Shown here one piece after another: positions 18,716 through 30,066 of a stretch of DNA of 64,000 bases; positions within the stretch are counted from its first letter, which is position 1, and each line of letters begins with the position of its first letter. This stretch comes from Streptomyces sp. NBC_00572. GTDB lineage: Bacteria > Actinomycetota > Actinomycetes > Streptomycetales > Streptomycetaceae. The DNA lies in NCBI RefSeq assembly GCF_026341815.1, contig NZ_JAPENX010000001.1, forward strand, positions 1,054,001 to 1,118,000, given 5' to 3'. Made by a program: the position numbers and the translations under genes. A model generated the notes under the pieces. That model saw only the letters and a list, made by a program, of their open reading frames with translations. It was not told the origin of the DNA and did not search any database.

Positions 18716-19366
18716 TTGGACACGCCCTTCTCCACGCTCATCCGTACGGCTTCGCACGAGCAGCACACGGAGGCGGAGACGTCGTCCTTCATGGGCGACC
18801 TCCTGGGCGGACGCCTGGCAGTCGACGCCTACGCCCGCTACACCGAGCAGCTCTGGTTCGTGTACCGGGCCCTGGAGGACGGCGCGGAGGCGCTGCGCGA
18901 GGACCCGGTCGCCGGGCCCTTCATACAGACCGAGCTGTTCCGCACGACCGCCCTGGAGCAGGACCTCGCCCATCTGCGGGGCCCCGACTGGCGCGCCCGG
19001 GTCTCCCCGCTGCCCGCGACCGTCGCGTACGCCGAGCGGGTCGCCGAGTGCGCCCGTGACTGGCCCGCGGGGTACGTGGCCCACCACTACACGCGCTACC
19101 TGGGCGATCTGTCGGGCGGCCAGATCATCCGCGACAAGGCGGAGCGCACCTGGGGCTTCGCGCGCAAGGGCGACGGCGTCCGCTTCTACGTGTTCGACGC
19201 GATCTCCAACCCGGCCGCGTTCAAGCGGGGGTACCGGGAGCTGCTCGACGGGGTGAACGCCGACGACCTGGAGAAGCAGCGGATCGTCGACGAGTGCAAG
19301 CGCGCGTTCGCCTTCAACAGCGCGGTCTTCCACCAGCTGGGCGGGGAGTTCCCGCTGACCGCGTGA
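18716..19366 (+). CDS. hmuO: Heme oxygenase, biliverdin-producing (HmuO/HO-1 type)
   Basis: Opens the heme ring with O2 and reductant to give biliverdin, CO and Fe2+, freeing iron from imported heme in the cytosol. The 216-residue length matches bacterial HmuO. His17 in SHEQHTEAE is the expected proximal heme ligand, and the flexible glycine-rich distal helix is YLGDLSGGQII. The start is a rare TTG at 18716 with GGAGG six bases upstream; no better start exists. An iron box lies just upstream. It belongs functionally with the HtaA/HmuTUV genes a few kilobases downstream. A 24-bp repeat follows the stop. Confidence 0.95.
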   Translation: MDTPFSTLIRTASHEQHTEAETSSFMGDLLGGRLAVDAYARYTEQLWFVYRALEDGAEALREDPVAGPFIQTELFRTTALEQDLAHLRGPDWRARVSPLPATVAYAERVAECARDWPAGYVAHHYTRYLGDLSGGQIIRDKAERTWGFARKGDGVRFYVFDAISNPAAFKRGYRELLDGVNADDLEKQRIVDECKRAFAFNSAVFHQLGGEFPLTA

Positions 19367-19422: not shown

Positions 19423-20103
19423 TCAGCGCGGGAGCGTTCCCTCCAGGCGGACCCGTCCGCCGAGTTCCACGATGCCGTCAGGGCCGGGGGCAGTGAGCAG
19501 CTGCGAACCCCGGCCCTGTGTGATGTTCAGGGCCCGTCCCAGCTCCGCCGTGAGCAGCAGGGCCGCCGCGCCGGTCGCCTCGTCCTCGTCGATGCCGTCG
19601 CCGCGACCCGGGAACGCCCGTGCCCTGACACGGCCCGCGGCCTCCTCCTCCCAGGCCCAGGCGTAGATCCACTCCCCCGGCTCGGGCACCTCCAGGGCGT
19701 CCACCTCGGCGGCGGAGCCGTACTGGCGCAGGGTCCGCGGCGGCGCCCACTCGGCGCGCGCCTCGATCCAGGTGAACTCCCCGTCGCCGCGCACCCACAC
19801 CTCGCCCGCGGGCGGACAGATGACCTCCAGGTCGAGCAGCCAGGCGACGCCGACCAGCGGGTGTCCGGCGAACGGCAGCCGCAGCCCGGGGGTGTAGATG
19901 TCGACGATCCCGCGCTCCGGGTCGTCCACGAACACCGTCTCGCTGAAGCCGAGCTCCTTGGCGAGTGCCTGTCGGGAGGCCTCGTCGGGGTGGTCACGGG
20001 TGTCCCGTACGACTCCGAGGGCGTTGCCGTGCCGGCCGTCGCCCGCGCAGAAGACCCGGAGGACGTCGATATCGGGGCCGCCGCTGTGCTCGGTCGTGTT
20101 CAT
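19423..20103 (-). CDS. PhzF-family isomerase-like protein
   Basis: A 226-residue member of the PhzF/diaminopimelate-epimerase-like fold. The catalytic-Glu motif GFSETVFVDD (normally E in FSETxF) and the second-lobe signature GIDEDEATGAAALLL (usually DExATGSA) are both present, along with LPFAGHPLVGVAWLL. PhzF itself isomerises a phenazine precursor, but most homologues act on unknown small molecules. It is somewhat shorter than the usual 260-300 residues. It is convergent with hmuO and follows the HtaA genes on the same strand after a gap of about 108 bp. A link to heme use is not shown. Confidence 0.85.
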   Translation of the reverse strand: MNTTEHSGGPDIDVLRVFCAGDGRHGNALGVVRDTRDHPDEASRQALAKELGFSETVFVDDPERGIVDIYTPGLRLPFAGHPLVGVAWLLDLEVICPPAGEVWVRGDGEFTWIEARAEWAPPRTLRQYGSAAEVDALEVPEPGEWIYAWAWEEEAAGRVRARAFPGRGDGIDEDEATGAAALLLTAELGRALNITQGRGSQLLTAPGPDGIVELGGRVRLEGTLPR

Positions 20104-20210
20104 GGCGGAAATTGAACCATTTCACGATGCGCCGGCAGGGCCGCACCCGCGAATCGGGTGCGGCCCTGCCTTCTTTCGGGGGGGGTGGTGCGGGACGGTT
20201 CAGGACCTGT

Positions 20211-21875
20211 TCAGGACTCCATGGCCCGGCGGCGCACGGCGACGACGACGGCCGCGCCCGCGGCGGCGAGGGCGCCCGAGGCGCCGAGCAGGAGGCCGGT
20301 CGGGGCGCCCGGTCCGGTCGCGGCGAGCGCGCCGGAGCCGCCCACGGAGCCGCCGCCTCCGACCGTGCCGCCGCCTCCGACGGTTCCGCCGCCGCCCGTG
20401 GCGGACGAGCCGCCGGCCTCGCCGCCACCGGTGGAGCCGGAGCCGCCCGAGCCGCCGGTGGTCGAGGGGAGCGTGGCGTCCTCGTCGAGCGAGAGGGTCA
20501 GGGTCAGCGGGTCCATGGCGGTGCCGGTCGGGTAGCCGCCCTGGCCGCCGGGGGCGGAGAAGGTGGCGGAGCCGGCCGCCGTCAGCTTCGCCGGGACGTT
20601 CGCGAGGGTGACGACGCCGTCGTTCGCCGTCCAGTCGGACGTGGACAGGTCGAGGTCGGCGAAGGCCACGTCGTTCTCGGTGCCCCGGGCGCTGGTGACG
20701 TCGGCGGACAGGGTGCCGGTGGAGCCGGTCGCCTTCACCTTCACGTCGCCGATGGTCCAGTCGATGCCGTGCGCGGCGCAGACGAAGGCGAGCTTGCCGG
20801 AGAAGGCCGCCTCGGCCTTGCGGGCGTCGGCGTCGAGGTCGGCCTTGACGAAGCCGAACTCGTAGGCCGATCCCTGCTTCTTCGCCTCGCCGGAGGGGGT
20901 GACGGAGCCGCCGCACATCTCGCCGACGTACTTCTGCCAGCTCTGCTTCACACCCCACGTCAGTGTGCCGTTCACGACCCCGGACGGGGCGCCGGTCGGC
21001 GCCGTGGCGGTCGGGTCGGTCGTGGCGGGGGCGGTGGTGGCGGGGTCGGTGGGCTGCGTGCCGGTCGCGGTCGGGGCCGGGCTGGTGGGCGCGGTGACGG
21101 TCGGGGCGGGGCTGGTGGGCGCCGTGGTGGTCGGGGCGGTCGTCGGTGCCGTGGTGGTCGGGGCCGTGGTCGGCGGAGTGGTGGGGGGCGTGGTCGGCGG
21201 CGCCGTGGTCGGGGGCGCGGTGGTCGGCATGCCGCCCGCCTTCACCGTGAGGGTGGCGGCGTCGAGGTCGTCGCCCTCCTTGTAGAAGCCTGCGAACGCC
21301 GCCGCGCCGTCCTTCGTCAGCTTCGCCGGTATGTCCTTGAACGTCATGACGCCGCCCGCGCCCTGGCTCGGCCGGACGCCGGTCATGTCGAGCGCGGCGA
21401 TGGCGATGTCCGAGCGGGTGGAGACGGAGCCGTCCTTCTCCTTGGTGACGACGTCGGCGGTGATCTCGCCGGTCGGCGCGGCCGTGCCCTTCGTCGACAG
21501 CCTGACGTCCGAGAACCGGATGTCGAGCGCGCCCTGGTGGGCCTCGAAGCGGACGCCGCCCTTGAAGGAGTTGGCGGTGGCGTGGGTGCCCGTGTCGTAC
21601 GTGCCGGTGCCGTCCACGAAGGTGAAGACGCCGTTGTTCGCCGCCTGCTTGGCGCCTCCCTCAAGGGTGGTCTTCCCGTGGGCGAACCCTCCGGCCAGAT
21701 AAGTGCGGAAGGACTGCTTGATGCCCCAGTCCAGCGTGCCGTCGCTCAGCGTCATCGAGGGCGCGGCATCGGCCGCGGCGGGCAGGGCGAGGGCGACGGC
21801 GCCCGTGCCGAGGGCGGCTGCCGTGGCGACGGCGGCGGCCAGGGTGACGGAACGGTGGCGCGAGGGGGTGGCCAT
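20211..21875 (-). CDS. HtaA-domain heme-binding protein with LAXTG sortase signal
   Basis: A 554-residue secreted surface protein. It has a signal peptide (AAAVATAAALGTGAVALALP, cleavage near AAADAAPS) and HtaA domain 1 (about 40-205; SFRTYLAGG, FEAHQGALDIRF). A Thr/Pro-rich linker of about 85 residues follows, then HtaA domain 2 (about 300-465; SWQKYVGEMCGG, FVCAAHGIDWTIGD) and a Gly/Ser linker. The end is LAATG at 517-521, a hydrophobic helix and RRRAMES, a class E sortase signal. Corynebacterial HtaA domains bind hemin through conserved Tyr and His, both kept here. ATG at 21875 has AGGAGA upstream. It is probably co-transcribed with the HtaA gene 69 bp upstream. Confidence 0.93.
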   Translation of the reverse strand: MATPSRHRSVTLAAAVATAAALGTGAVALALPAAADAAPSMTLSDGTLDWGIKQSFRTYLAGGFAHGKTTLEGGAKQAANNGVFTFVDGTGTYDTGTHATANSFKGGVRFEAHQGALDIRFSDVRLSTKGTAAPTGEITADVVTKEKDGSVSTRSDIAIAALDMTGVRPSQGAGGVMTFKDIPAKLTKDGAAAFAGFYKEGDDLDAATLTVKAGGMPTTAPPTTAPPTTPPTTPPTTAPTTTAPTTAPTTTAPTSPAPTVTAPTSPAPTATGTQPTDPATTAPATTDPTATAPTGAPSGVVNGTLTWGVKQSWQKYVGEMCGGSVTPSGEAKKQGSAYEFGFVKADLDADARKAEAAFSGKLAFVCAAHGIDWTIGDVKVKATGSTGTLSADVTSARGTENDVAFADLDLSTSDWTANDGVVTLANVPAKLTAAGSATFSAPGGQGGYPTGTAMDPLTLTLSLDEDATLPSTTGGSGGSGSTGGGEAGGSSATGGGGTVGGGGTVGGGGSVGGSGALAATGPGAPTGLLLGASGALAAAGAAVVVAVRRRAMES

Positions 21876-21944
21876 GACGGGGTTCTCCTAGAGGGACTTG
21901 GGGCGCAAGGGGGGGCGAGACGCAAGGGGTGCGCACGGGGGGTT

Positions 21945-23396
21945 TCAGGCCGAGGGGGTACGGGTGGGAGTACTGCCGCTACGGCCACGGCGTACGGCGA
22001 CGAAGACCGCGAGTGCGGCGGCGAGCAGCACGCCCGCCCCGATCGCGACGTACAGCCCGGTGGGGGACGAGGAGGGTTCGGAGGCCGCCGCGGGTGCGGG
22101 TGCGGCGGACGCGGAAGGAGTCGTGGGCGCCGCGGGGGTGGGCTTCGCGTCGCTGCCGAGATCAGGGAGCGCGGGCAGTTGGGCCTTGGTGCCGACGGCG
22201 ACGGCCAGGGACACCGGGTCCATCGCGGTCCCGGCCTTGTACATCCCGCCGAAGGCCTTGGCGCCGCCCTCGGTGAGGGTGGCGGGGGCCTCGATGACGG
22301 CGGCGAGGCCGTTCTTCGGGGTGAGGTCGCGGGCGGTGAAGGTGACGAGGGGGACGGCCTTCTCGGTCCGGCCCGCGCTGGTGACATCGGCGCCGAGGGT
22401 GCCGGTTCCGCCGCTCACCTTCACGGTGACCTTTCCGAGGGTGAGGTCGAGGTGGGCGCCGGTGAAGCGGACGCTGCCCGCGAAGGCGGCGTCGAGGGTG
22501 CCGTTCCTCGGGTCGTACGTGCCCTTGCCGTCGGGGAAGCGGAAGAGCGCGCCGCCGTCCTGGGCGCCGTCGGCGAGGGTCCACTCGCCCTGGGAGACGG
22601 CTCCGGTGACGTACTCGCGGAAGGTGCGGCGCACGCCCCAGTCGACGGCGGCGGCGCGGAGGTTTCCGGCGGCCGGGGCCGACGGTGACGAACTCGCGGT
22701 GGCGGAAGGCGTCTTGGAAGGGCCGCCGGTGGGCTCGGTGGTGGGCGTGGCGCTCGGTGTGGCCTTCCGCGGCGAGCGGACGTCGACGGTGAGGCTGACG
22801 GGGTCGAGCGAGGTACCGGCCGGGTAGTAGCCGGCGAAGGCGGTGGCGCCCTGGGCGGTGAGCCTGGCGGGCACGCCGGCGAGCGAGACGGGGCTGCCTC
22901 CGCCGCGCATGTCGATCCCGCCGACGTCGAGCGTGGCGAGCGGCACCCGGGAGGAGACGGTCGTCCGGCCGCTGCCCTTGGCCTTGCTCGCCATGTCGGC
23001 GTAGAGGGTTCCCCTTCCGCCGTGGATCCGGATCCGGGGGCGGCTGATGGTGAGGTCCAGCTCGTTGCTGCCGTCCGCCTTGCGGTGGCCGGTGAAGTGG
23101 ACGCCGCCGGAGAAGGCGGCTTCGAAGGCGCCGGTCTCCGGGTCGTACGAGCCCTGCGCGGAGTGGAACCGGAACTGGCTGCCGCCGACCGTGGCGGCTC
23201 CGCCGGTGAGGCCCCAATCGCCTTGGGCGATGGGACCGGTGACATAGCTCTGGAAGGAGGACTTGATGCCCCAGTCGAGCCGTCCGCCCTGCACCGTGCG
23301 GCTCTCCGCGTGGGCGGCGCCGGCCGGGACGAGGGCGGCGAGCAGGGCCGCGAACAGGGTCACGGCGAGCGCGCGGGCGGGTCTGGACAGCAGCAT
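21945..23396 (-). CDS. HtaA-domain heme-binding protein with C-terminal membrane anchor
   Basis: A 483-residue protein with a signal peptide (ALAVTLFAALLAALVPAGA, cleavage after AHA) and two HtaA domains: about 35-195 (SFQSYVTGPIAQGDW, VHFTGHRK) and 230-395 (TFREYVTGAVSQGEW, FTGAHLDLTLG). An Ala/Pro-rich linker leads to a membrane helix (LYVAIGAGVLLAAALAVFV) and a basic tail. It has no LAXTG, so it should stay membrane-anchored, whereas the downstream HtaA protein can be moved to the wall. ATG at 23396 follows GGAGG by six bases. It is divergent from hmuT, with the iron box 24 bp upstream. Likely role: taking up or relaying heme to HmuT. Confidence 0.93.
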   Translation of the reverse strand: MLLSRPARALAVTLFAALLAALVPAGAAHAESRTVQGGRLDWGIKSSFQSYVTGPIAQGDWGLTGGAATVGGSQFRFHSAQGSYDPETGAFEAAFSGGVHFTGHRKADGSNELDLTISRPRIRIHGGRGTLYADMASKAKGSGRTTVSSRVPLATLDVGGIDMRGGGSPVSLAGVPARLTAQGATAFAGYYPAGTSLDPVSLTVDVRSPRKATPSATPTTEPTGGPSKTPSATASSSPSAPAAGNLRAAAVDWGVRRTFREYVTGAVSQGEWTLADGAQDGGALFRFPDGKGTYDPRNGTLDAAFAGSVRFTGAHLDLTLGKVTVKVSGGTGTLGADVTSAGRTEKAVPLVTFTARDLTPKNGLAAVIEAPATLTEGGAKAFGGMYKAGTAMDPVSLAVAVGTKAQLPALPDLGSDAKPTPAAPTTPSASAAPAPAAASEPSSSPTGLYVAIGAGVLLAAALAVFVAVRRGRSGSTPTRTPSA

Positions 23397-23420: not shown

Positions 23421-23439
23421 TGAGGTAAGGCTAACCTAA
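23421..23439. promoter_or_regulatory. Iron box between htaA and hmuTUV
   Basis: TGAGGTAAGGCTAACCTAA matches 17 of 19 consensus positions, the best in the window. It lies 24 bp upstream of the HtaA start at 23396 and 95 bp upstream of the hmuT start at 23535, so one bound DmdR/IdeR dimer pair could silence both directions. Confidence 0.93.
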
Positions 23440-23534: not shown

Positions 23535-24542
23535 GTGCGCAGAACTCGCCTCGCGGGAGCGCTGACAGCAGTGCTCGCCCTCGCCCTCATGGCGACCGGC
23601 TGCGGTGACGGAGGCGGAAGCGGAACCGGGGTCGGCCCGGCGAGCGCGTCCACCGCAACCCCCGACCGGGTCGAGCCGCTCGCCGACCCGGTCGGGCCCC
23701 GGCTCCCCGTCACCGTCCCCTCCGCCGACGGCCGCACGGTCACCGTCACCTCCACCGACCGGATCGTGCCGCTCAGCGGCTCCCTCAGCGAGATCGTCTT
23801 CACCCTCGGCCTCGGCACGAAGGTCGTCGCCCGGGACATCACCGCCACCTTCGAACAGGCCGGGAAACTCCCGGTGGTGACCCGCGCCCACGACGTCTCC
23901 GCCGAGAGCGTGCTCTCCCTCAGGCCCACCCTCGTCCTCGCCGAGGGCACCACAGGACCGGCCGAGGCCATCGCCCAGATCCGGGACGCGGGCATCCCGC
24001 TCGTCGTCGTGAAGCCCGCGAAGGCACTCGCCGACGTCGGCACCCGCATCGACGCGGTCGCCGCGGCCCTCGGCGTACGGAAGTCCGGGGCCGCGCTCAG
24101 GAAGCGCACCCAGGAGCGGATCGACACCGCGCGGAAGGAGATTCCGGCCCGCGAGGAGAAGCCGCGGGTGGCCTTCCTGTACGTGCGCGGCACGGCCGCC
24201 GTCTATCTGCTCGGCGGGGCCGAGTCGGGCGCGAGCTCGCTCCTCGAAGCCGCCGGGGCGATCGACGCGGGCAAGGAGTCCGGCCTGACCAAGGACTTCA
24301 CCCCGATCACCAGCGAGGCCCTGGCGAAGGCCGCACCCGACGCGATCCTCGTCATGAGCAAGGGACTCGACTCGGTCGGCGGGATCGACGGCCTGGTGAA
24401 GATCCCCGGCGTCGCCGAGACCCCGGCCGGCGCCGACCGCCGGGTCGTCACCGTCGACGACGGCGTCCTCCTCAACTACGGCCCGCGCACCGACCGGGTA
24501 CTGAAGTCCCTGGTCGGCCAGTTGTACGGGGAGAACCAGTGA
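23535..24542 (+). CDS. hmuT: Heme ABC transporter substrate-binding lipoprotein
   Basis: The extracytoplasmic heme receptor of a class III (BtuF-like) ABC importer. The 335-residue precursor has a lipoprotein signal ending in LMATGC, a polar linker and the helical-backbone fold: RIVPLSGSLSEIVFTLGLG, the segment VSAESVLSLRPTLVLAEG, and the late DGVLLNYGPRTDRVLKSL. HmuT proteins ligate heme with Tyr and His; candidates are His in TRAHDVSAES and Tyr in LYVRGTAAVYLLGG. GTG at 23535 has only a weak GGAC ribosome site. Its stop overlaps the hmuU start (GTGA). Confidence 0.93.
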   Translation: MRRTRLAGALTAVLALALMATGCGDGGGSGTGVGPASASTATPDRVEPLADPVGPRLPVTVPSADGRTVTVTSTDRIVPLSGSLSEIVFTLGLGTKVVARDITATFEQAGKLPVVTRAHDVSAESVLSLRPTLVLAEGTTGPAEAIAQIRDAGIPLVVVKPAKALADVGTRIDAVAAALGVRKSGAALRKRTQERIDTARKEIPAREEKPRVAFLYVRGTAAVYLLGGAESGASSLLEAAGAIDAGKESGLTKDFTPITSEALAKAAPDAILVMSKGLDSVGGIDGLVKIPGVAETPAGADRRVVTVDDGVLLNYGPRTDRVLKSLVGQLYGENQ

Positions 24543-25636
24543 CGGCGCTCCAGGAGACCCCGCCGGCCCTCGGCAAGGACCCTTCGCCGCAGGCACCTCC
24601 CGTCGCACGGCCTCGTACCGCCGCCCTCCTCACCGCCGGCCTCCTCGGCGTCCTGCTCCTCCTCGCCCTGCTCTCCGCCGGGATCGGGGCGTACGAGATC
24701 CCGCTCGGTGACGTCCTCGCCTCCGTGCAGCACCGGATCGGGCTCGGCGGGCACGCCCTCGACCGCACGGCCGAGAGCGTCCTGTGGAACATCCGGCTCC
24801 CCCGGGTCGTCCTCGCCGTCCTCGTCGGCGCCTCGCTCGGCTGCGCGGGCGCCCTCATGCAGGGCGTGTTCGGCAATCCGCTCGCGGAGCCGGGCGTCAT
24901 CGGCATCTCGGCGGGCGCGGCCGTCGGCGCGGTCGGCGCGATCGCGCTCGGGCTCACCTTCCTCGGCAACTGGACGGTGACGGTCTGCGCGTTCGCCGCC
25001 GGGCTCGCGACCGTGCTCCTCGTGTACGCGATGTCCCGCTCCGGCGGCCGTACGGAGGTGGTGACCCTGATCCTCACCGGTATCGCGGTGAACGCCTTCG
25101 CGGGCGCGCTCATCGGCCTCTTCATCTTCTTCGCCGACAACGCGCAGGTCACCCAGATCACCTTCTGGCAGCTCGGCTCGCTCGCCCAGGCCACCTGGCC
25201 CAAGGTCCTCGCCGTACTGCCGTGCGCGCTCCTCGGCCTCGCCGTCGCCCCCTTCTACGCCCGCCGGCTCGACCTGCTCGCCCTCGGCGAGCGGCCCGCC
25301 CGCCATCTGGGCGTGGACGTGGAGCGGCTGCGGGTCGCCCTGATCCTGGTGGTGGCACTGCTCACGGCGGCGGCGGTCGCGGTGGCCGGGATCATCACCT
25401 TCGTCGGTCTGCTCGTCCCGCATCTGCTGCGAATGGCGAACGGTCCCGGCCACCGCTTCCTGGTGCCGGGCAGCGCGCTCGGCGGCGCGGTCGTCCTCAC
25501 GGCCGGCGACCTCGCGGCCCGTACGGTCGCGGCCCCGGCCGAACTTCCCCTGGGCGTCCTCACCGCCCTCCTCGGCAGCCCGTTCTTCTTCTGGCTGCTG
25601 CGCAGGACCCGTCGCAGGCAAGGTGGTTGGGCATGA
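24539..25636 (+). CDS. hmuU: Heme ABC transporter permease
   Basis: A FecCD/BtuC-type permease of 365 residues with about ten membrane helices. The first 30 residues are polar; helix 1 is ALLTAGLLGVLLLLALLSAG. Family signatures are NIRLPRVVLAVLVGASLGCA, LAEPGVIGISAGAAVGA and the ATPase-coupling loop GERPARHLGVDVERLR. The ends FVGLLVPHLLRM and PLGVLTALLGSPFFFWLLRR are nearly invariant in the family. Start and stop overlap those of hmuT and hmuV, so the three genes form one coupled operon. It carries heme across the membrane as a dimer. Confidence 0.96.
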   Translation: MTALQETPPALGKDPSPQAPPVARPRTAALLTAGLLGVLLLLALLSAGIGAYEIPLGDVLASVQHRIGLGGHALDRTAESVLWNIRLPRVVLAVLVGASLGCAGALMQGVFGNPLAEPGVIGISAGAAVGAVGAIALGLTFLGNWTVTVCAFAAGLATVLLVYAMSRSGGRTEVVTLILTGIAVNAFAGALIGLFIFFADNAQVTQITFWQLGSLAQATWPKVLAVLPCALLGLAVAPFYARRLDLLALGERPARHLGVDVERLRVALILVVALLTAAAVAVAGIITFVGLLVPHLLRMANGPGHRFLVPGSALGGAVVLTAGDLAARTVAAPAELPLGVLTALLGSPFFFWLLRRTRRRQGGWA

Positions 25637-26493
25637 CATCCGTACGCCTCCGGGGACTGCTCCCCGCACTCGCACACCGGCGCACGCGCGCAATGCCCTC
25701 CCCCGCCGCGCCCGGCGATCCGGTCGCCGAGGCCGTCGGCGTGCGGGTCGAGCGCGGCGGCCGGGCCGTGCTCGACGGGGTCGGAATCGAGGTGCGGGCC
25801 GGAGAGGTGCTCGCCCTGGTGGGGCCCAACGGGGCCGGCAAGTCGACGCTGCTCGCCGCGCTCGCCGCCGATCTCGCGCCGAGCGCCGGAGAGGTACGGA
25901 TCGGGGGTCGGCCGGCGGCCGGCTGGACGCCCGGTGAACTGGCCCTGCGGCGGGCGGTGCTGCCGCAGGACGCGGCCCTCTCCTTCCCCTTCGCCGTCGC
26001 CGACGTGGTGCGGATGGGCCGGGCCCCGTGGGCGGGGACCGAGCGGGAGGAGGAGGACGAGGCGGCCGTCGCCGGGGCGATGGCGGTCACGGAGGTCGGG
26101 GCCTTCGCCGAGCGCCCGTTCTCCGCGCTGTCGGGAGGCGAGCGGGCCCGGGTCGCGCTGGCCCGGGTCCTGGCCCAGCGAACCGGTCTCCTGCTGCTCG
26201 ACGAACCGACGGCCGCCCTCGACCTGCGCCACCAGGAACTGGTCCTGCGGGTCTGCCGGGAGCGCGCGGCGGCCGGGGACGCGGTGGTGGTCGTCCTGCA
26301 CGACCTCGGGCTCGCGGCGGCCCACGCGGACCGGGTCGGGGTGCTGCACGAGGGCCGGATCGCGGTGGCGGGGCCGCCTTCGGACGTCCTCGAAGCGGAA
26401 TTGCTGAGCCGGGTCTACCGGCAGCCGGTGGAGGTGTTCCCGCACCCGCGGACCGGCGTCCCCCTGGTCGTACCCAGGCGTACTTACGAGTAA
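25633..26493 (+). CDS. hmuV: Heme ABC transporter ATP-binding protein
   Basis: The 286-residue ATPase of the heme importer. Walker A is GPNGAGKSTLL, the Q-loop is LPQDAALSFPFAVADVV with the heme-type continuation RMGRAPW, the signature is LSGGERARVALA, Walker B is LLLLDEPTAALD and the switch His is VVVLHDLGLAAAHAD. ATG at 25633 overlaps the hmuU stop (ATGA). An N-terminal extension of about 35 residues (LLPALAHRRTRAMPSPAA) is unusual; an internal ATG at 25693 (MPSPAAPG) is an alternative start. The stop is followed at once by a short hairpin at 26494. Confidence 0.96.
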   Translation: MTSVRLRGLLPALAHRRTRAMPSPAAPGDPVAEAVGVRVERGGRAVLDGVGIEVRAGEVLALVGPNGAGKSTLLAALAADLAPSAGEVRIGGRPAAGWTPGELALRRAVLPQDAALSFPFAVADVVRMGRAPWAGTEREEEDEAAVAGAMAVTEVGAFAERPFSALSGGERARVALARVLAQRTGLLLLDEPTAALDLRHQELVLRVCRERAAAGDAVVVVLHDLGLAAAHADRVGVLHEGRIAVAGPPSDVLEAELLSRVYRQPVEVFPHPRTGVPLVVPRRTYE

Positions 26494-26688: not shown

Positions 26689-27843
26689 ATGCGAGCCGTT
26701 CGCCTCTCCGTCGTCACCGCCGCAGCGACCGCTGCGGCCCTGGCCGCCGTCACGGGCTGCACCGAGAAGAGCGACGCCAAGGCGGACGACGGCACGGTCA
26801 CCGTCGTTGCCAAGGACGACTCCTGCGAGGTCTCGAAGAAGGCGTTCCCGGCCGGTCACCTGAAGCTGGCCGTCGAGAACCGCGGCTCCAAGGTCACCGA
26901 GGTCTACGTCCTCTACCCGGACGACCGCATCGTCACCGAGCGCGAGAACATCGGCCCCGGCACCAAGGCCACCATCACCGCCGAGATCAAGGCCGGCGAC
27001 TACGCCATCGCCTGCAAGCCCGGCATGGTCGGCGACGGCATCCGCCAGGAGGTCAAGGCCACCGGCGGCGCCGCGGGCGCCAAGCGCTCCCCCGAGATGG
27101 ACGCGGCCGTCGCCGCCTACCGCCAGTACGTCCAGGCGCAGGCCGACGCGACCCTCCCCAAGGTGAAGGTCTTCACCGACGCCGTCCGCGCCGGTGACAT
27201 CGAGGCCGCCAAGAAGGCCTACGCCGAGTCCCGCATCGGCTGGGAGCGCACCGAGCCGGTCGCCGAGTCCTTCGGCGACCTCGACCCCAAGGTCGACGTA
27301 CGCGAGGACGGCCTGGAGGCCGGCCAGGACCCGGCGAAGGACTGGACCGGCTGGCACCGCCTGGAGAAGGCCCTCTGGAAGGACAAGAAGCTCGGAGCCG
27401 CCGAGAAGACCCTCGCCGACACCCTCGACAAGGACCTCGCGGACTGGGTGAAGCGGGTCGGCAAGGCCGAGATCACCCCGACCTCGATGGCCAACGGCGC
27501 CAAGGAGCTCCTCGACGAGGTCGCCACCGGCAAGGTCACCGGCGAGGAGGAGCGTTACTCCCACACCGACCTCGTCGACTTCAAGGCCAACGTCGAGGGC
27601 GCGCAGAAGTCCTTCGACCTGCTCCGGCCGGTCGCCACGAAGAACGACCCGAAGCTCGTCGCCGAACTGGACAAGCAGTTCGCCGCGCTGAACGCGCTGC
27701 TCGACAAGTACCGCACGGACAAGAGCAGCTACGTCTTCACCTCGTACGACAAGGTCACCCCGGCCCAGCGCAAGGAGCTGTCGGACGGCGTCAACGCGCT
27801 GGCCGAGCCGCTCTCCAAGCTCGCTGCCGCCGTCGTCAAGTAA
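26689..27843 (+). CDS. efeO: EfeO: iron-uptake lipoprotein with cupredoxin and imelysin (M75) domains
   Basis: The extracytoplasmic component of the EfeUOB ferrous/ferric iron system. The 384-residue precursor has a lipobox (AAVTGC, Cys near 24), a cupredoxin-like domain (about 35-125; KDDSCEVSKKAFPAG, YAIACKPGMVG) and an M75/imelysin domain (about 135-384). The latter holds the metal-binding HxxE in GWHRLEKALW and the repeated helical pattern YRQYVQAQADATLPKV. ATG at 26689 follows TGGAG by five bases. It is first in the operon efeO-efeB-efeU and has iron-box-like sites upstream. It likely binds and oxidises or presents iron to EfeU. Confidence 0.95.
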   Translation: MRAVRLSVVTAAATAAALAAVTGCTEKSDAKADDGTVTVVAKDDSCEVSKKAFPAGHLKLAVENRGSKVTEVYVLYPDDRIVTERENIGPGTKATITAEIKAGDYAIACKPGMVGDGIRQEVKATGGAAGAKRSPEMDAAVAAYRQYVQAQADATLPKVKVFTDAVRAGDIEAAKKAYAESRIGWERTEPVAESFGDLDPKVDVREDGLEAGQDPAKDWTGWHRLEKALWKDKKLGAAEKTLADTLDKDLADWVKRVGKAEITPTSMANGAKELLDEVATGKVTGEEERYSHTDLVDFKANVEGAQKSFDLLRPVATKNDPKLVAELDKQFAALNALLDKYRTDKSSYVFTSYDKVTPAQRKELSDGVNALAEPLSKLAAAVVK

Positions 27844-27870
27844 CCAGTAGCGAGAGACGGGGACGCGAAG

Positions 27871-29154
27871 ATGTCCGAGGAGATCCAGGAGACCCAGGGA
27901 ACGACGTCGGCGGACGAGACCGCCGCGCCGTCCCGCCGCAAGGTCATCGGCTGGGGCGGTGCCGGGCTCGCGCTCGGTGCCGCCACCGTCGGCGGCGGCG
28001 TCGCGCTGAGCCGGGACGGGGACACCCCCGTGCCGGTCGCCGACAGCGGCTCGGCCGTGCCGTTCCACGGCCCGCACCAGGCCGGTATCGCCACCGCGGT
28101 CCAGGACCGGCTGCACTTCGCCGCCTTCGACGTGAAGACGAAGGACCGCGCCGAGCTGGTCCAGCTGCTCAAGGACTGGACGCGGGCCGCCGAGCGCATG
28201 ACGGCCGGCGCCGAGGTCGGCGAGGGCGCGTACGGTGGCCTTCCGGAGGCCCCGCCGGACGACACCGGCGAGGCCCTCGGCCTCAAGCCCTCCCGTCTCA
28301 CCCTCACGATCGGCTTCGGCCCCTCGCTCTTCGACGGGCGTTTCGGGCTGAAGGACAAGCGGCCCGGGGCCTTGGTGGAGCTGCCCAAGTTCCCGGGCGA
28401 CAACCTGGATCCGGTGTGCAGCGGCGGCGACCTGTGCGTGCAGGCGTGCGCGGACGACCCGCAGGTCGCCGTGCACGCCATCCGGAACCTGGCGCGGATC
28501 GGCTTCGGCAAGGTCGCGGTGCGCTGGTCGCAGCTGGGCTTCGGCAAGACGTCCTCGACGACCCCCGACGCCCAGACCCCCCGTAACCTCTTCGGCTTCA
28601 AGGACGGCACCCGCAACATCGCGGGCACCGAGACCGAGCGGCTCGCGAAGCACGTGTGGGTCTCCGGCAAGGACGCCGAGGGCGCCGCGGCCTGGCTGGA
28701 CGGCGGCTCGTACCTCGTCGCCCGCCGCATCCGGATGAACGTCGAGACCTGGGACCGCACCCCGCTCGCCGAGCAGGAGGACATCTTCGGCCGCGACAAG
28801 CGCGAGGGTGCGCCCGCCGGCAAGGCCAAGGAGCACGACGAGCCGTTCCTGAAGGCGATGAAGCCGGACTCGCACGTCCGGCTCGCCCACCCGGACAGCA
28901 ACGCCGGGGCGACGATCCTGCGGCGCGGCTACTCCTTCACCGACGGCACGGACGGACTCGGGCGCCTGGAGGCGGGCCTGTTCTTCCTGGCGTACCAGAA
29001 GGACGTCCGGACCGGCTTCATCCCGGTGCAGACCTCCCTGTCGCGGGCCGACGTCCTCAACGAGTACATCCAGCACGTGGGTTCGGCGCTGTTCGCGATC
29101 CCGCCGGGCGTCCGGGACAAGGACGACTGGTGGGGCCGGGCGCTGTTCGCGTGA
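27871..29154 (+). CDS. efeB: EfeB: Tat-exported Dyp-type heme peroxidase
   Basis: A 427-residue DyP-type peroxidase that in Efe systems oxidises Fe2+ or, by some reports, removes iron from heme (deferrochelatase). The N-terminus has a twin-arginine signal, SRRKVIGWGGAGLALG, so it is exported folded with heme. The signature GFKDGTRN supplies the catalytic Asp, and RRIRMNVETW supplies the distal Arg. Its start (ATG 27871) lies 28 bp after efeO. A heme enzyme exported next to HtaA/HmuTUV could also act on captured heme, but this is inference. Confidence 0.95.
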   Translation: MSEEIQETQGTTSADETAAPSRRKVIGWGGAGLALGAATVGGGVALSRDGDTPVPVADSGSAVPFHGPHQAGIATAVQDRLHFAAFDVKTKDRAELVQLLKDWTRAAERMTAGAEVGEGAYGGLPEAPPDDTGEALGLKPSRLTLTIGFGPSLFDGRFGLKDKRPGALVELPKFPGDNLDPVCSGGDLCVQACADDPQVAVHAIRNLARIGFGKVAVRWSQLGFGKTSSTTPDAQTPRNLFGFKDGTRNIAGTETERLAKHVWVSGKDAEGAAAWLDGGSYLVARRIRMNVETWDRTPLAEQEDIFGRDKREGAPAGKAKEHDEPFLKAMKPDSHVRLAHPDSNAGATILRRGYSFTDGTDGLGRLEAGLFFLAYQKDVRTGFIPVQTSLSRADVLNEYIQHVGSALFAIPPGVRDKDDWWGRALFA

Positions 29155-29184
29155 CGCTCCACGTAACCCCGGGAGGGAACCGGC

Positions 29185-30066
29185 GTGTTCGGTAACTATC
29201 TGATCGGCCTGCGCGAGGGCCTTGAGGCCAGCCTGGTCGTCTGCATCCTCATCGCCTATCTGGTGAAGACCGGCCGGCGGGACGCGCTGAAGCCGATCTG
29301 GATCGGCATCGGCGTGGCCGTCGGCGTGGCCCTCGCCTTCGGCGCCGGTCTCGAATTCGGCTCCCAGGAGCTGACCTTCGAGGCACAGGAACTGCTCGGC
29401 GGCTCGCTGTCGATCGTCGCGGTCGTCCTGGTGACCTGGATGGTCTTCTGGATGCGGCGCACGGCCCGGCACCTCAAGGCCGAGCTGCACGGCAAGCTGG
29501 ACGCGGCCCTTCAGATGGGCACCGGCGCGCTGGTCGCCACCGCCTTCCTGGCGGTGGGCCGCGAGGGCCTGGAGACGGCGCTGTTCGTGTGGGCGTCGGT
29601 CCGGGCCTCCTCGGACGGCACGTTCGCGCCGCTGGCCGGTGTCCTCCTCGGGCTGCTCACCGCCGTGCTCCTCGGCTGGCTGTTCTACCGGGGCGCGCTG
29701 AGGATCAACCTGGCGAAGTTCTTCACCTGGACCGGCGGGATGCTGGTCGTGGTGGCGGCGGGCGTCCTCGCGTACGGCGTGCACGACCTCCAGGAGGCCC
29801 GCTTCCTCGACGGCCTCGCGAACAAGGCCTTCGACATCTCGGCGACGATCCCGCCGGACAGCTGGTACGGCACGCTCCTCAAGGGCGTCTTCAACTTCCA
29901 GCCGAACCCGACGGTCCTTCAGGTCACGGTGTGGGCGCTGTATCTGGTCCCGACGCTCGCGCTGTTCCTGGCCCCGATAGGGTCGGGTCCGTCCGTGCGG
30001 GTGAAGAAGCAGAAGGCGACCGATGAGAAGGCTGACGCTGAGGCGAGCGCCGAGACGACCGCTTGA
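29185..30066 (+). CDS. efeU: EfeU: FTR1-family iron permease
   Basis: A 293-residue, seven-helix oxidase-dependent iron permease. The two REGLE iron-binding motifs of the FTR1 family are intact: LREGLEASLVV in helix 1 and GREGLETALFV in helix 4. ATG or GTG choice: the gene begins GTG at 29185, preceded by GGGAGGG. The C-terminus is a charged tail (VKKQKATDEKADAEASAET). It is third in the efe operon and its end overlaps the next gene by 44 bp, in another frame. Confidence 0.95.
   Translation: MFGNYLIGLREGLEASLVVCILIAYLVKTGRRDALKPIWIGIGVAVGVALAFGAGLEFGSQELTFEAQELLGGSLSIVAVVLVTWMVFWMRRTARHLKAELHGKLDAALQMGTGALVATAFLAVGREGLETALFVWASVRASSDGTFAPLAGVLLGLLTAVLLGWLFYRGALRINLAKFFTWTGGMLVVVAAGVLAYGVHDLQEARFLDGLANKAFDISATIPPDSWYGTLLKGVFNFQPNPTVLQVTVWALYLVPTLALFLAPIGSGPSVRVKKQKATDEKADAEASAETTA

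Follow-up and report, generated by a model that had tools for sequence, protein, structure and literature searches.

The htaA2 gene lies on the minus strand at 20211..21875 of the window analysed here, a stretch of 64,000 nucleotides from Streptomyces sp. NBC_00572, and translation of the open reading frame places its ATG start at 21875 and the end of its stop codon at 20211. Its product (P0002) is a tandem HtaA/CR-domain protein of 554 amino acids with an LAXTG sorting signal, as indicated by Pfam, the reading frame and alignment. On the same strand, htaA1 (21945..23396) encodes a tandem HtaA protein of 483 amino acids that has a membrane tail but lacks LAXTG (Pfam and tail inspection). Pfam also identified hmuO (18716..19366, plus strand), a heme oxygenase (PF01126), and, between hmuO and htaA2, a PhzF-like frame of 226 amino acids (19423-20103, minus strand) that aligns only with N-terminal positions 10-79 of the 281 in the Pfam model. 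On the plus strand, and running divergently from htaA2 and htaA1, are hmuT (23535..24542), the heme-binding protein of an ABC importer (Peripla_BP_2) with a lipobox-like MATGC near its N-terminus; hmuU (24539..25636), a FecCD-family permease; hmuV (25633..26493), an ABC ATPase whose ATG overlaps the hmuU stop (Pfam and frame inspection); efeO (26689..27843), with cupredoxin and imelysin domains; efeB (27871..29154), a DyP-type peroxidase; and efeU (29185..30066), an FTR1 permease, all again from Pfam. Long open frames on the plus strand also cover htaA2 (19965-22688 is one example), and we regarded these as high-GC shadows of the genes on the opposite strand.

Between htaA1 and hmuT lies an iron box (23421..23439), a DmdR/DtxR-type palindrome that reads TTAGGTTAGCCTTACCTCA on the minus strand. 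It has 3 mismatches to the 19-base DmdR/DtxR consensus against which it was scored, with 0 expected in shuffles. An iron box beside htaA1 and hmuT is present in nearly all the Streptomyces and Kitasatospora loci that reach that position, the order htaA2-htaA1-hmuTUV is kept in the loci of these genera, and hmuO is found in most of them. The genes efeO-efeB-efeU (26689-30066, plus strand) come right after hmuTUV here and in close relatives only, not in distant Streptomyces or Kitasatospora. Streptomyces sp. WAC08241 has two copies of the heme locus (L018 and L027), one near each end of a single chromosome record; htaA1 and htaA2 of one copy share an open frame of 1111 residues with four HtaA domains, and in the other copy the htaA frames are broken. 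These frame oddities are likely to be sequencing errors.

Domain architecture and predicted fold of HtaA2

The product of htaA2 matches PF04213 (HtaA) with 253 bits, against a gathering score of 24, over two stretches, and an earlier note on this DNA was therefore right in placing two HtaA domains in one protein. From the N-terminus onward, and always on the minus strand, the protein comprises a signal peptide region (residues 1-35, 21771..21875), the boundary of which was inferred by inspection; HtaA/CR domain 1 (about residues 43-213, 21237..21749; Pfam, column mapping and AlphaFold); a Thr/Pro/Ala linker predicted to be disordered (residues 217-298, 20982..21227; composition and AlphaFold); HtaA/CR domain 2 (about residues 299-466, 20478..20981; Pfam, column mapping and models); a Gly/Ser/Thr-rich stalk, also predicted to be disordered (residues 467-516, 20328..20477; alignment and AlphaFold); the LAATG sorting motif (residues 517-521, 20313..20327; sequence and orthologue conservation); and a post-motif segment made of a hydrophobic helix and an RRRAMES tail (residues 522-554, 20214..20312; hydropathy and AlphaFold). 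Translation and hydropathy confirmed the motif at exactly the position that had been given, and likewise the helix and the tail after it.

The full-length AlphaFold model contains two folded domains and a helix after LAATG (526-537); the signal peptide, linker, stalk and tail are modelled with very low confidence, as would be expected of disordered regions. Because the pTM of this model was 0.39, the relative placement of the domains was left unused. Domain 2, modelled with a pLDDT of 91.7, has the CR beta-sandwich fold (Z 22 to 6jsa and 8smu): comparison with the crystal structures of HtaA, HtaB and ChtA gave Z values of 16-23, those of unrelated folds being 7.4 or less, and a structure search with the same model yielded E values down to 2.5e-11. 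The n-region of its signal peptide reads RHR, in place of the Tat-like RR of most close orthologues; one orthologue (L013) has RHR too, and judging from the sequence its export may follow either the Tat or the Sec route.

The linker had been described as some 85 residues of nearly only Thr, Pro and Ala, and this agrees well with the 82 residues that we count, 76 of which are Thr (33), Pro (24), Ala (16) or Ser (3). The suggestion that it is an O-glycosylated spacer fared less well as a conserved requirement. Only part of the family has a Thr/Pro-rich linker; other HtaA2 orthologues have linkers of like length made of Ala/Ser/Thr/Pro or of Gly/Asn/Ser/Asp, and in three of them (L029, L035 and L036) the linker is Gly/Asn/Ser-rich, the Thr/Pro-rich acceptor stretch not being conserved. 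Since the Thr/Pro composition is variable, glycosylation is no conserved function of the linker; the conserved property is that of a long flexible spacer. The genome encodes a Pmt-type mannosyltransferase (PF02366, 57 bits, in a frame of 661 amino acids), and glycosylation of this particular HtaA2 copy may take place, without being implied. The main text of the glycoproteome paper mentions neither HtaA nor the S. coelicolor genes SCO2270 and SCO2271.

Conservation of the LAXTG sorting signal

The LAATG motif of HtaA2 is followed by a hydrophobic stretch with a Kyte-Doolittle value of 2.1 over 19 residues and then by RRRAMES. When all the stop-to-stop frames of 60 amino acids or more in the whole window were scanned (n = 509), the combination of L[AP]xTG, hydrophobic stretch and basic tail was found in a single one, that of HtaA2. 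LAxTG arises by chance in 2.8% of the shuffles of the last 75 residues, so that the HtaA2 sequence taken by itself is merely suggestive of a sorting signal. The question was settled by the orthologues. In an alignment of 24 HtaA2 sequences from Streptomyces and Kitasatospora, L517, A518, T520 and G521 are invariant, as are two Arg of the tail, and the flanking stalk hardly aligns. A second sample of the genus gave an HtaA2 match in 21 of 41 genomes, about half being without a match, and the system is hence accessory; the loci of this sample with a readable C-terminus carry LAXTG (as LAATG, LASTG or LANTG), the exception being one locus (L062) in which the frame runs on. The earlier note had named lack of conservation of LAXTG in orthologues as the finding that would speak against its proposal, and the motif is kept. 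On this conservation we regard the sorting signal as genuine. In NCBIfam no sorting-signal or LAETG family model matches P0002 even at E = 10, and the motif call thus rests on pattern and conservation.

HtaA1 likewise ends in a hydrophobic tail with basic residues, and no LAXTG stands ahead of its anchor here or in its orthologues. In the HtaA1 of two loci (L030 and L032) an LA[AT]TG is located inside the membrane helix and not before it, and therefore cannot serve as a sorting motif. The neighbouring HtaA protein is, as had been proposed, predicted to be anchored in the membrane only, and the pairing of an HtaA protein bearing LAXTG with a membrane-only HtaA protein is conserved across orthologous loci. 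The genome has four matches over the curated class E sortase cut-off (NF033747), three of them within 3.5 kb, and LAXTG is the motif preferred by SrtE1 of S. coelicolor (PMC5148588). The stretch matched at L050 (G000:C2:1717859-1718617), a class E sortase hit that passes the cut-off, includes an in-frame TAG.

These data bear on two other ways of reading the C-terminus. The frequency of LAxTG in the tail shuffles would fit a chance match of LAATG in a low-complexity, Ala/Gly-rich tail, yet this is contradicted by the conservation data, LAXTG being invariant across diverged orthologues and the tail of helix plus Arg being complete, and we consider such a coincidence extremely improbable. It could also be that sortase makes little or no use of LAXTG and that HtaA2 is a tail-anchored membrane protein, becoming a free hemophore upon release from the membrane. 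The C-tail of the S. albidoflavus homologue inserts stably in the membranes of E. coli, which has no class E sortase (PMC10924467), and HtaA in corynebacteria is membrane-tethered and partly secreted (PMC12494546). Against this stand the strictly conserved L-A-T-G that precedes the helix, though the stalk around it hardly aligns, the absence of LAXTG before the anchor of the paralogue HtaA1 and the four class E sortase matches, and mere tail anchoring of HtaA2 appears improbable to us.

Heme pockets of the two domains

The axial Tyr of CR domains has been shown to coordinate hemin, and functions have been described for the pocket positions (PMC12494546). We mapped the pocket columns onto the C. 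diphtheriae CR2 sequence. Domain 1 of HtaA2 presents a canonical pocket, with S55, axial Y59, helper H113 and Y198. Domain 2 keeps S312, axial Y316 and Y448, both domains thus having the axial Tyr and the propionate-contacting Ser and Tyr, and its helper column is occupied by A367. The axial Tyr is found in 26 of 26 copies of each domain. Two residues past the helper column of domain 2 there is a histidine, H369, that might stand in for the helper His.

Domain 2 also contains a pair of cysteines, C321 after the axial-Tyr helix and C366 before the helper position. This pair occurs in 13 of the 26 HtaA2 second domains, including that of the window protein, with both cysteines together in 13 of 13, and the helper His is present in none of these 13 copies versus 12 of the remaining 13. 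Proteins with the pair cluster in the tree of domain 1, where one or two changes are needed and deep support is weak, so that the pattern amounts to one or two evolutionary events and not thirteen. In the predicted models C321 comes after helix 311-320, and C366 is the last residue of a strand that leads into a turn. Because the residue of ChtA equivalent to C366 contacts the helper (PMC12494546), closeness of C321 and C366 is plausible on the modelled structure, and the finding that the two cysteines come either together or not at all suggests a disulfide next to the heme pocket of domain 2. An association of the pair with Sec export, as opposed to Tat, was rejected, since close orthologues combine RR with the pair.

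The altered pocket of domain 2 is the least ordinary part of HtaA2, and among open-licence papers we found no report of this loss of the helper His with gain of two Cys. A solved variant of C. glutamicum HtaA, H434A (6jsc), is helper-less by mutation, whereas domain 2 of HtaA2 is naturally so. One may speculate that domain 2 of this Streptomyces subgroup has a rebuilt pocket, in which a disulfide would act as a redox gate or a Cys as iron ligand. We hold this to be unlikely. With a gating disulfide, heme would be held or released according to the extracellular thiol state, and the rebuilt pocket would add a novel type of CR domain to a heme relay that runs from wall to membrane.

A proposed heme relay and its known relatives

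Given the conserved signal, the class E sortases, the pair of HtaA proteins with and without LAXTG and the heme-import locus, a relay is the natural reading. We estimate at roughly three in four the probability that HtaA2 is a wall-linked outer heme receptor in an Isd-like relay of CR domains leading from HtaA2 to HtaA1 and then to HmuTUV and HmuO. Iron limitation, acting through the iron box, would switch on HtaA2 along with its membrane-tethered paralogue HtaA1 and the divergently encoded hmuTUV importer. After export, the C-terminal helix would hold the protein briefly, and a class E sortase would cut between T520 and G521 and join it covalently to peptidoglycan. The Gly-rich stalk would span the wall, with domain 2 near to it and domain 1 reaching outward past the disordered linker of 82 residues. 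Hemin would be taken up by domain 1 through axial Y59 and helper H113 and would then pass to domain 2, to HtaA1 and to HmuT; HmuUV would import it and HmuO would open the ring, freeing the iron.

Some observations speak against parts of this scheme. Because domain 2 is without the usual helper His, its place in the relay is unsure, and since corynebacterial HtaA proteins work with a membrane helix alone, some being secreted (PMC12494546), heme uptake in itself does not require attachment to the wall. HtaA2 could moreover be mainly a heme sink or a hemoprotein-binding surface protein, serving protection against toxic heme or storage instead of feeding HmuTUV. The departure of the domain 2 pocket from the canonical one would suit such a role, as would the reported toxicity of hemin above nM levels to S. 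atratus, a species that carries this cluster too (PMC10060970), but the iron box and the synteny with an importer and a heme oxygenase point to iron acquisition and make a sink quite improbable. As the outer arm, HtaA2 almost certainly belongs to an ordinary system for the uptake of iron from heme. If it acts by the relay proposed here, the logic of Isd would be realized in soil bacteria through CR domains and a class E sortase, as a testable Gram-positive chain of wall-anchored receptor, membrane-held receiver and importer. Heme transfer between CR domains was named as an open question in the 2025 paper on the ChtA and HtaA structures (PMC12494546), and the conserved pair of HtaA2 and HtaA1 would be a good place to examine it.

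The observation on HtaA2 is a true one, read correctly in the main, and is already described at the annotation level. The earlier note knew of no description of a sortase-E-anchored HtaA protein, a statement that has to be withdrawn: SCO2270 was among the S. coelicolor sortase substrates named in 2011 (PMC3123327), substrates having been listed before, and in 2024 an S. albidoflavus protein with two HtaA domains and LASTG was put to the test on the prediction that it is a sortase substrate exported by Tat (PMC10924467). SCO2270 is the orthologue of htaA2 by gene order, with hmuO, the htaA genes and hmuTUV in the same arrangement, and a 2025 paper described SCO2267 and SCO2270-2274 as the homologues of hmuO, htaA and hmuTUV (PMC12161575). 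In S. atratus two tandem HtaA genes lie beside heme transport genes, in a cluster that occurs in a range of streptomycetes (PMC10060970). The S. albidoflavus protein (WP_129815067.1 / WP_010637519.1) resembles HtaA2 in its two HtaA domains, LASTG, hydrophobic helix and RRR, and the core of its signal peptide, LAAAVATA, is very similar. Its signal peptide and C-tail were functional in reporter fusions, where the twin-arginine signal was Tat-dependent (PMC10924467), whereas HtaA2 has RHR at that place. Among open-licence papers we found neither a demonstration of wall anchoring, by fractionation or otherwise, or of heme binding for Streptomyces HtaA proteins nor a description of a relay from HtaA2 to HtaA1, and the Cutibacterium HtaA paper does not mention sortase.

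The HtaA proteins of Corynebacterium diphtheriae and C. glutamicum share with HtaA2 the tandem CR domains, the axial Tyr, the fold and the hmuTUV locus. They differ from it in having a membrane helix, with no sortase motif described, and in a second domain that keeps the helper His where HtaA2 has an Ala and the Cys pair. In the Isd system, heme moves from one Tyr-ligating domain to another, along receptors anchored by sortase, and on to the lipoprotein of an ABC importer. The Isd proteins of Staphylococcus aureus (IsdA/B/C and IsdE) are thus alike in their working, a comparison drawn in PMC12494546, but they employ NEAT domains and class A/B sortases and are not homologous to the HtaA2 system.
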